The position numbers and the translations under genes were made by a program. This document shows positions 12,541-53,600 of a stretch of 64,000 nucleotides of DNA, one piece after another. Each line of letters opens with the position of its first letter. The first letter of the stretch is position 1. Origin of the DNA: Kondoa malvinella (taxonomy: Eukaryota; Basidiomycota; Agaricostilbomycetes; Agaricostilbales; Kondoaceae); the NCBI GenBank assembly GCA_039545315.1, contig BCIM01000001.1, positions 1,702,943 to 1,766,942 of the forward strand, read 5' to 3'. The notes below the pieces were generated by a model. That model was not told the DNA's origin and did no database searches. It saw nothing but the letters and a program-made list of their open reading frames with translations.

Positions 12541-12707
12541 CTAGCTGATGGGCGTAGAANTTGTAGGAAACATCTGCTCTGATCTATGTATTAACAGACT
12601 TGAATCCGCCAATGGAAGATTTACTCTGCTGCTGCTGCTGTGACAGCGTATGGATCCGCCTCGGTTATTTGGAGAGCAAAAAAGTGAGTGGGCAGAAAGC
12701 NCAAAGC

Positions 12708-12715
12708 AAAAAAAA
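12708..12715 (-). terminator. Pol III oligo-T terminator of the tRNA-Asp gene
   Basis: Read on the minus strand, eight consecutive T lie 14 nt downstream of the discriminator base of the tRNA. This is the expected RNA polymerase III stop signal and argues that the interrupted tRNA gene is, or recently was, a Pol III unit. Confidence 0.8.
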
Positions 12716-12749
12716 CCCAGAACGGAAGACTCTCTGGCCGGGAATTGAA

Positions 12750-12802
12750 CTGTCATGANCGTTTTTGAGTTGGGAACAAATGATGATCGGAATATTACAT
12801 AC
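12750..12802 (-). other. 53-nt intron-like insertion in the T arm of tRNA-Asp
   Basis: Read on the minus strand, the insert begins GTATGT and ends GACAG, with a CTCAA candidate branch site about 20 nt before the end, and its length is typical for the mRNA introns of this window. It separates G53 of the T stem from T54 of the T loop. The boundary can slide by one base (GT..AG or GG..CA). The downstream exon keeps AGTTCAATTCC, so a near-consensus B box survives. Confidence 0.85.
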
Positions 12803-12817
12803 CCCGGGTCGCCCGCG

Positions 12818-12827
12818 CTTCATTGAA
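12818..12827 (-). other. Canonical-position tRNA intron (10 nt) of tRNA-Asp
   Basis: The ten bases TTCAATGAAG lie directly after A37, where eukaryotic tRNA introns are cut by the splicing endonuclease. Removal restores a 7-nt anticodon loop with C38, an Asp identity base. Confidence 0.85.
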
Positions 12828-12864
12828 TGACAAGCGGGTATACTAGCCACTATACTACCAAAGA

Positions 12865-50600: not shown

Positions 50601-53600
50601 TTTTGGCTGTCTCCACCAATACTTCACCAATCATGTCTCCAAGCGATGAAGACCAGCTTCTTCCGACTGACATTGCGTACTTGAATAACCTGCCTCGTAT
50701 CTTTAGCAAGCTTCAGCATATCAGAGACCAGGTCATCCAGCCCAGCATTTCGTCAGCCGAGCAAAATTGCCACGATGTAGTGGACTTGGCGGCTGCAATC
50801 TCAGATCAAGCTAAAAGCCTCAAGAATACGCCTCTGATAGGCTCCGAAGAAGTCCAGCAAAAGCAAGCCAGCGCGCTGTTGACTCGGAAGCGCAGGCGAT
50901 GGGCTGATCTTTTGCGAGAACTCAAGAGACTTGGTCTGTCACACAACCCTACCGAAACGAATCGCCGTAGCATTCAAGAGCTTCTCACGTACCATCGCCA
51001 CGGCGTTCTCGCAGCAGCGTCCTCCCAGGCAGCGACTTCTTTCAACAACTTGTACTCTCAAGTCACAGAGCTTGTGCCTCGTCTGGCGGCATGTCTAGTC
51101 AATCATCACGAGGACCTGGCTGGAAGAGAAATCGCCAGAGCTGTAGGAAGTGCTCATTCTCTGGCGATTGTGTGTATCAACGGCAAGAGAGATCTGCTGA
51201 ACCTTGCTAGTATGCACATCAGATTCGTTTCCTGCTTGAGGAAGTTAGAAGCTGCATTCTCCTCCGATCACCTTCCTGACATGGCGCAAGAAGGTCACAA
51301 AACTCTGAGCGGACCGGTGGCTTGTCTCAACGCGCATCTCAGTCTGGTTCGCAAGAGTCAAGCAAGCCTGTTGAAGCTCAAGGCGACTGTTCTGCTTCAA
51401 AGCAAGATGCTTGGTGACGCGTCCTCGGTCGACCAAGTAGCTGAAGAGCTGGAGTCGCTGATTCTACTCGCCGCTGACTGTTCTGCTGGGCTACGTAATG
51501 CCGTCGACAAGAATACCAGTTGTGCACCTGGCTTTTTCTTGGACTCTGACCGGAAGCTACTGCGAGACGCCGAACTTGTCGTGGACTCCGTCCTTGAATG
51601 TTTGTCTTCGATGCAGCAAAAGTATCCAGCATGGCGGTATCAAGTGGTCCCTGTTGCTCAATTCTTGGCCACAGCTCGCACATTCACCTTTCAGTCTGCT
51701 TCAGCGAAACTTAGTCCCGCTACTTCGACCATCATGGAGTCTTTCAAATTGCTCGTTGATTGCATCCTCATCACCTTTCAACGATTGTCGGCACTGTCTG
51801 CAACAGCAGTCGAGGAAAATGCCAGTGAACCTGCCGAGGACCTACCTACTAGATCAATAAAGGCCGAATCGTCCGTTATAGGCAAACACCTTCTTGCGCT
51901 CAACTTGGAAGGTGTTTCTTCCGCCATGTCGCATTTCATGTCTGCTATACACCACGCTACATTCGCCTCACAATCTGCTATTGACGAAGCCCGCCTATCG
52001 ATCCGGCGTGCTCTGCCTTTCTTGGCTCACTACGAGGTCACGCTCCACCAGTGTCTAGGCCTCTGCACGAACCAGAATTTGAGCAATCTCAATCTGCTAC
52101 AAACTGTCAGTCAGCTGATCCTGACCATCTCGGACCAAGGATTTTGCCAACCCTCAAAAGGCGACGAACAGAGCGAGTCGGCCGATGCCAAGGGCGAGTC
52201 GACAGGAACAGGTATGGGCGAAGGAGCTGGCGGCAAGAACGTTAGCAAAGAAATTGAAGGCGAAGAACAAGTCGAGGGCTTGCAGAATGAGGCGCAGGCT
52301 GAGGAACAAGATGGCGGCGATCAACCTGACGATGATGAGCGTGTCGAGATGGAGAACGACTTTGATGGCAAATTAGAAGATGCCAAAGAGGAAGAGTCAG
52401 GAGCTGAAGGCCAAGAGGATGAAGATGAAGCTTCTGAGCCAGATGCGGATGAAACTGTTGACCAGGTGGATCCCAACGACCCCAATGCTGTCGATGAAAA
52501 GTTCTGGGGCGAACAAGATGACAAACAGCAACCAGAAGCAGAGGAGCGGGGCAAAGATGCAACCGATGGTCAAGACCAGTCAACCGAGCTAGGCGAGAAA
52601 CAAGCTGGCGAAAAGAAGCAGCCTGAAGATGCCAACGATGAGAGTCCGGACGATCTACCAGAAAAGGCAGATCAACCAGACGATGGGATGGATGTAGATC
52701 AGCCGGCAGAAGACGAGCAATTGCAAGATTATGTCGGACCGCACGAAACAGACAAGCTCGACTTGCCAGATGCGTCCAAAGATGATGACGAAGTTCTACC
52801 TGAGGATGCCGAGATGAATGAGGTAGATGATCAGCCCGATGGTGAGCCAAACCTTTCCTCTCTCTGCAGACCAAGTCTGACCGAATGTGACATCCAGCTC
52901 AATCAGAGCCTGCGGCAGACGATGAACAAAGTCAAGCCGGAAGTCCGCGCGATACAACAGAAGCCGATCGTGGCGACCAGGCTGAAGACGAAGCTGCTCA
53001 AGACCAAGTCGACGGAATGGCGGAGAATGAAGCTGAAAATTTGGCTGAAAAGGATTTGGCTGATCAAGGAGATGCTCAAGAAGGCAGCGGTGATACAGCA
53101 GGCGGAAGTGGTACGGCTGAAGAACAGTCATTGCAAGCCGAAACACCGCACCAACCGGAAGCAAGTGTTTCTCAGCGTGTCTCAGACTCGACAGCTCAAG
53201 ACGCCAACGACTCTGCTGCTGATGCAGAAGAGCGCGCTCTTCACGGACCTGAGAGCGCTCGGGAAGAAGACTCTTCTGGACAAGATCAAGGGACAGGTCA
53301 AGCTCAAGATGCAGGTTCGGCAAACGAGCCGAATGCCTCGCAGCAACTGGGATCATCTTTGCAAGAATGGGAGAGACAGCTCAAAACCATCCAACAAGCT
53401 GCAGCCCCTGAAGACATGCCTTCTCAACTCGACGCTCAGACCAGTGCCAACACGAGTCAAGATGTCCAGCATTTGAATGCCGAAGAAAGCTCCGCGTTAC
53501 AGGCGGTAGGCACTCTAGCTGACCAAGAAGCATCTGAATTGCGCGACGCCTTCCCAAGCGATAATCATGAAGGAGCTGATGCGACGCAGGATGCCGAGCA

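Follow-up and report, generated by a model that had tools for sequence, protein, structure and literature searches.

The splicing of tRNAs has been described, in the accessible part of PMC13149111, as independent of the spliceosome. In archaea, in the nucleomorphs of cryptophytes and chlorarachniophytes and in Cyanidioschyzon merolae, ectopic tRNA introns are found in the D arm, the T arm and the variable loop, and several may occupy one gene alongside the canonical intron; excerpts of PMC4090602 and PMC3978253 ascribe them to the tRNA splicing endonuclease, acting on bulge-helix-bulge (BHB) or relaxed sites, with some cases unexplained. A different kind of interruption is known from fungal U3 snoRNA and U6 snRNA genes, which carry GT-AG introns whose CTRAY branch sites lie 6-36 nt before the acceptor; U3 introns are broadly distributed in Basidiomycota, and no small structured RNAs other than U3 and U6 are known to be frequent hosts of such introns (PMC5832005).

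The window analysed here, by which we mean the whole 64-kb stretch of Kondoa malvinella DNA, contains a tRNA-Asp gene with an insert in its T arm. Judging from its sequence and that of its counterparts elsewhere in the genome, this insert is very probably a spliceosomal intron of the ordinary kind, and the tRNA-Asp gene that it interrupts is very probably functional and probably present once. Counting this one, such introns number at least 16 and are spread over 15 tRNA genes. As with fungal U6 and U3, small structured RNA genes are interrupted by GT-AG introns, and U6 is likewise transcribed by Pol III; unlike there, the hosts are tRNA genes of many isotypes, and the only U6 snRNA gene found in this genome (L114, G000:C14:428362-428477) has an intact core and no intron. 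The ectopic introns of the Guillardia nucleomorph measure 3-24 nt (PMC3978253, in excerpt), whereas those described here measure 47-55 nt, are of GT-AG type, carry a branch motif and form no strict BHB. Canonical 37/38 introns of nuclear tRNAs co-occur with them, yet differ in position, ends and recognition. We found no precedent for a spliceosomal intron in a tRNA gene in the open literature, including the accessible parts of PMC3978253, PMC11782384, PMC5832005, PMC13149111 and PMC4090602, most subscription papers and bioRxiv lying outside the scope of this search. The intron type itself is known; its presence in tRNA genes, and what this would mean for how tRNAs mature, are not.

The tRNA-Asp gene of the window

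An earlier note on this DNA had placed a 53-nt insert after base 53 of a tRNA-Asp(GUC), and this placement holds: on the minus strand, which that note did not specify, the insert reads GTATGT...GACAG from 12802 to 12750 (Table 1). The full cloverleaf that it described is likewise recovered, with 0 mispairs, provided that a 10-nt intron at 37/38, absent from that note, is also removed. The yeast aspartate identity bases to which it referred (G34-U35-C36, C38, G73 and G10-U25) are all present by inspection. Its comparison with mRNA introns is borne out too, the 53 nt of the insert standing against 49-55 nt in six picked introns of the window.

ARAGORN reports no tRNA in the 64-kb window, and the Rfam tRNA model scores the locus at 27.0 bits, below its gathering score of 29. 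With the GT-AG insert cut out, ARAGORN does report a tRNA, which it labels Phe, placing the other intron differently. When both strands of the window are scanned for GT..AG excisions of 40-70 nt that restore a cloverleaf, the tRNA-Asp locus alone is returned. The assembly has an N at 12759, which is the first base of the probable branch motif.

Table 1. Features of the tRNA-Asp locus (window coordinates), inserts outside 37/38 in the 15 interrupted tRNA genes (tRNA positions, approximate where the length of the D loop varies) and inverted pairs of tRNA genes (contig coordinates)
Feature	Position	Strand	Length or sequence
tRNA-Asp(GUC) gene, two introns, three exons	12864..12730	minus	
Exon 1, bases 1-37; A box at ~12857-12847	12828..12864	minus	
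Canonical 37/38 intron	12818..12827	minus	10 nt, TTCAATGAAG
Exon 2, bases 38-53	12803..12817	minus	CGCGGGCGACCCGGG
GT-AG intron at 53/54	12750..12802	minus	53 nt, GTATGT...GACAG
Probable branch motif, branch A 7 nt from 3' end	12755..12759	minus	NTCAT
Exon 3, bases 54-73	12730..12749	minus	TTCAATTCCCGGCCAGAGAG
B-box core, completed in the DNA sequence by the last intron G	12742..12750	minus	GTTCAATTC
Probable Pol III terminator, T run then GC	12706..12715	minus	TTTTTTTTGC
Asp-GTC insert	53/54		53 nt
Gly-TCC insert	51/52		52 nt
Thr-CGT insert	32/33		49 nt
Pro-CGG insert	53/54		50 nt
Leu-TAA insert	25/26		50 nt
Asn-GTT insert	51/52		51 nt
Trp-CCA insert	25/26		54 nt
Gly-CCC insert	15/16		55 nt
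Ile-TAT insert	15/16		51 nt
Arg-TCT insert	15/16		49 nt
Leu-CAA insert	32/33		49 nt
Elongator Met-CAT insert	48/49		49 nt
Cys-GCA insert	13/14		47 nt
Arg-TCG insert	52/53		48 nt
Pro-TGG, two inserts, plus 5-nt canonical intron	27/28; 45/46		48 nt; 55 nt
Inverted pair, Thr	C2: 2276k/2287k		
Inverted pair, Lys	C2: 2568k/2573k		
Inverted pair, Gly	C5: 932k/959k		
Inverted pair, Glu	C5: 939k/941k		
Inverted pair, Phe	C13: 120k/136k		

Interrupted tRNA genes across the genome

The assembly searched comprises 19.09 Mb on 20 contigs. A pattern blind to anything upstream, consisting of a B box and then TTTTGC, returned 61 rows, against 13 for a reversed control pattern. By hand tally, 37 of the 61 rows correspond to 36 tRNA genes; 12 of these carry a GT-AG insert and the other 24 have no interruption outside 37/38. 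An Rfam search added three more interrupted genes (Gly-TCC, Arg-TCT and Arg-TCG). Altogether, 44 nuclear tRNA genes were located, and 15 of them, on nine contigs, contain 16 inserts at ten positions outside 37/38; the remaining 29 genes (L001-L028 and L075) have no such insert. Scanning 20 of the 24 non-tRNA rows of the pattern yielded no new tRNA. A looser B-box core followed by TTTTTGC occurs 142 times in the genome, compared with 36 occurrences of its reversed form; 20 of these loci, chosen from 100 of the 142 rows, gave no tRNA with or without excision, and neither did any of another 18 control loci that combine a B box with a T run (0/18).

With their introns removed, all 15 interrupted genes assume a complete cloverleaf with the conserved bases by our own scorer, with 0-2 mispairs per gene (one in elongator Met, two in Leu-CAA). 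The Trp gene can be fitted with a 16-nt variable loop or, by eye, with a longer 37/38 intron and one A-C mispair, the latter being the likelier reading. As fitted, a canonical 37/38 intron of 4-32 nt is present in every interrupted gene except Gly-TCC (14/15).

Insert boundaries were picked by cloverleaf score among GT..AG excisions, with neither the G at +5 nor the branch motif imposed; the exceptions are tied donors in L063 and L079 and the two introns of L044, both set by eye. Among all boundary pairs within 25 nt, our scorer places the GT-AG pair among the best, alone or tied, in 8 of 14 genes, and in 6 of 14 a non-GT-AG excision comes out 0.5-2.5 points higher by this crude measure. ARAGORN assigns the expected isotype to 12 of the 15 genes after excision and to only one (Leu-TAA) before; the tRNAs that it reports before excision, in 3 of the 15, are each obtained by taking 49-59 nt as an intron. 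After correct excision it misnames Asp as Phe and Leu-CAA as SeC and leaves Leu-TAA undefined. Since 24 of 138 off-target GT..AG excisions made in these loci also pass ARAGORN, this control is not clean, which argues mildly against ARAGORN as proof.

Spliceosomal hallmarks of the inserts

All 16 inserts begin with GT, end with AG and have a G at +5. A CTNAY branch motif whose A precedes the 3' end by 7-22 nt is found in 15 of them, to which the NTCAT of tRNA-Asp, with its assembly N, can be added; for fungal introns in general, the branch-to-acceptor distance is given as 6-36 nt in the accessible part of PMC5832005. Ten of the 16 motifs have the published fungal form CTRAY and six, Asp among them, are CTYAY, the Asp motif being the weakest of all, with an N as its first base and only 7 nt to the AG. 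By comparison, the window contains 6633 chance GT..AG segments measuring 45-57 nt, of which 25% have a G at +5, 15% have CTNAY and 4.7% have both (Asp being counted with its N on the side of the inserts).

The six mRNA introns of the window mentioned above agree with the inserts in motifs as well as in length, CTNAY being present in all of them. They were hand-picked from 95 candidates, many of them chance pairs, because the ORFs on either side reach at least about 200 aa; a candidate of 65 nt at 53315-53379, with no motif and with long overlapping ORFs, was omitted. Two of the six belong to midasin, and alignments of that protein are interrupted at these very points. Used as one query against the genome, 14 of the 16 tRNA gene introns (both introns of L044 being left out) matched only at their own 14 loci. 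They therefore do not stem from recent copying of a single element, and a recent burst of introner type is rejected, as these 14 introns share no sequence with each other or with other genomic copies.

Endonuclease processing and precursor folding

The first reading of the earlier note, entry of a spliceosomal intron into a tRNA gene transcribed by Pol III, is supported by motifs and lengths in at least 15 genes. Its second, an extra cleavage site of the endonuclease, is disfavoured. We consider it very unlikely that the tRNA splicing endonuclease has gained non-canonical sites and removes the inserts, as it does in archaea, nucleomorphs and Cyanidioschyzon, even if 25/26, 45/46 and 53/54 are also archaeal ectopic positions (PMC4090602, in excerpt) and the Guillardia nucleomorph has many ectopic introns without a defined BHB (PMC3978253, in excerpt). 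None of the 16 inserts shows strict BHB geometry (two outer pairs and a central helix with 3 or 4 of its 4 pairs formed, the relaxed hBH/HBh' forms falling outside this test), whereas all 16 have a branch-like motif. The central helix alone can be formed by one of the 16 inserts, compared with 8 of 15 canonical introns of the same genome (Fisher p 0.006), and no canonical intron of other genes has GT..AG ends (0/15). Cleavage by the endonuclease would, moreover, leave the GT, G+5, CTNAY and AG of all 16 inserts unexplained.

Folding of the tRNA-Asp precursor, which had been proposed as a way to reveal a BHB, shows none at either junction of the minimum-energy structure by inspection. With the insert in place (N read as C), the T arm is misfolded and the structure is no stabler than shuffled sequences (z 0.16); minus the GT-AG insert, the predicted fold is cloverleaf-like (z -2.36). 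This suggests that the endonuclease, which needs a mature-like fold, can act only once the GT-AG insert is gone.

Functional status of the interrupted genes

That the interrupted genes are decaying pseudogenes, with working copies that lie elsewhere or are unassembled, strikes us as extremely improbable. There are observations that such decay would account for: tRNA-Asn has an uninterrupted copy (L001, which also has no canonical intron) beside the interrupted L048, a tRNA-Ala(AGC) copy with a GA-AG insert and two stem mispairs (L078) looks degenerate, seven isoacceptors were not located, and only 63 of 531 Rfam candidates were scored. However, the exons of the interrupted genes retain full cloverleaves, and random decay would not produce 16 inserts that all measure 47-55 nt and bear both splice and branch motifs.

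The third reading of the earlier note was a fresh pseudogene whose function other copies cover, to be recognised by several intact tRNA-Asp genes together with a lack of spliced reads from this locus; a genome search for tRNA-Asp(GTC) by patterns and Rfam (63 of 531 candidates scored) returned no uninterrupted copy in the 19.1-Mb assembly. Its joined T arm, as a 17-nt pattern with at most one mismatch, has 0 matches in the genome (the pattern is one base off and admits the exact joined arm and few variants); its 5' half (24 nt, at most three mismatches) occurs once, at the locus in the window; and none of the 34 Rfam tRNA matches is an intact tRNA-Asp. Cys, Trp and elongator Met were, like Asp, located only in interrupted form, and no intact substitute for any of the four was found with the patterns and the scored Rfam candidates, which makes pseudogenes unlikely. 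No intact Leu(UUR), Arg(AGR) or Gly(GGR) gene is present among the 34 Rfam matches or the assignable pattern matches either. The seven isoacceptors located in no form are initiator Met, His, Tyr, Val-AAC, Val-TAC, Leu-AAG and Glu-TTC; searches for initiator Met (13 loci scanned, 69 rows viewed, against 21 for the reversed pattern) and for further Val genes gave no recognisable tRNA.

Promoters and terminators

One could also suppose that the GT-AG introns are removed from Pol II read-through transcripts in which the tRNA is embedded, the Pol III product being dead. Pol II transcripts are the normal substrate of the spliceosome, and the intron of Ile-TAT contains TTTTT, which could stop Pol III. 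We nonetheless give this scenario scarcely any credence, for the signals of Pol III transcription are largely kept. In the DNA of 14 of the 15 interrupted genes the B box GTTCRANYC is unbroken, Arg-TCG having TTTCGATCA; in the two genes Asp and Pro-CGG, the GTTC of the B box is restored in the DNA by the G that ends the intron, so an internal promoter is kept despite the insertion. TTTTGC follows within 42 nt in 12 of the 15. Across the 44 located tRNA genes, 36 have the same motif no more than 42 nt past the B box and acceptor strand, in a manner resembling a conserved terminator. The tRNA-Asp gene itself is situated within 7.3-17.1 kb of the window, a region without any ORF of at least 200 aa, though a 92-aa open frame overlaps the gene; ORFs upstream, at about 9.7-11.6 kb, have translations that we take, by eye, to resemble pyruvate decarboxylase, and a cyclin exon lies at 17.1-18.0 kb. 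Ranked by bit score, the best named match to the cyclin is Rhodotorula graminis (74% over 54% of the query), followed by Cronartium (67%), Melampsora (66%) and Malassezia (69%), which makes Pucciniomycotina a likely though not certain affiliation; the nearest match overall is a contig at 94%. Finally, splicing of a Pol III transcript has a fungal parallel in U6 (excerpts of PMC5832005 and PMC10484740).

An assembly error as the source of the tRNA-Asp insert, a worry that the N at 12759 had raised, is ruled out by the interruption of 15 genes across nine contigs.

A possible maturation pathway and its implications

If the inserts are spliceosomal introns, Pol III would transcribe the whole tRNA gene from its A and B boxes and halt at the T run. 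Going by the motifs, the spliceosome would then act on the precursor through its GTNNG donors, CTNAY branch sites and HAG acceptors, joining the exons. The interrupted arm could fold only once the exons are joined, and end trimming and export would therefore follow spliceosomal excision; the tRNA endonuclease and ligase would take out the 37/38 intron last.

With 15 of 44 located genes interrupted, and only interrupted genes located for Asp, Cys, Trp and elongator Met, the spliceosome has probably become an obligatory tRNA-maturation machine in this fungal lineage. As these are the sole located genes for the four tRNAs, many codons would need tRNAs processed by both the spliceosome and the endonuclease. 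If this is correct, translation in Kondoa malvinella depends directly on the spliceosome, spliceosomal introns have spread to a class of genes believed to exclude them, and it becomes possible to test in which order tRNAs are processed (folding, trimming, export and endonuclease splicing). The tRNAs that were not located (initiator Met, His, Tyr and some Val and Leu) may be interrupted too. ARAGORN reports a tRNA in just 3 of the 15 genes while they are unspliced, so further cases may lie among the tRNAs that seem to be 'missing' from other fungi.

Further observations on tRNA loci

The T loop of the tRNA-Ala(AGC) at L078 (G000:C3:1147700-1148500) is split by 50 nt reading GAATGT...CTAAT...CAACAG. 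This insert is like the other introns but starts with GA, not GT, and the two stem mispairs were noted by eye; the locus may be a decaying copy, a sequencing error or a GA-AG intron. Two partial loci were also observed. On the minus strand of L071 (G000:C12, near 51025), opposite the interrupted tRNA-Cys, there is a second tRNA-Cys-like 3' half with B box and terminator, with no 5' half in the 260 nt upstream. At L097 (G000:C2:1747220-1747580), a perfect T arm and acceptor strand (GCCGG TTCGAGC CCGGC GTTGGGT) stand before a T run and are preceded by GC-rich repeats; no 5' tRNA half was found.

Duplicated tRNA genes form inverted pairs 2-27 kb apart, each pair on one contig (Table 1). The G53-C61 pair is near-universal in tRNAs; here, the 53-61 pair is A-T in the tRNA-Ala(CGC) of L008 (G000:C4:1253250-1253327) and T-A in the tRNA-Arg(TCG) of L077 (G000:C1, minus strand, 1770534-1770620).
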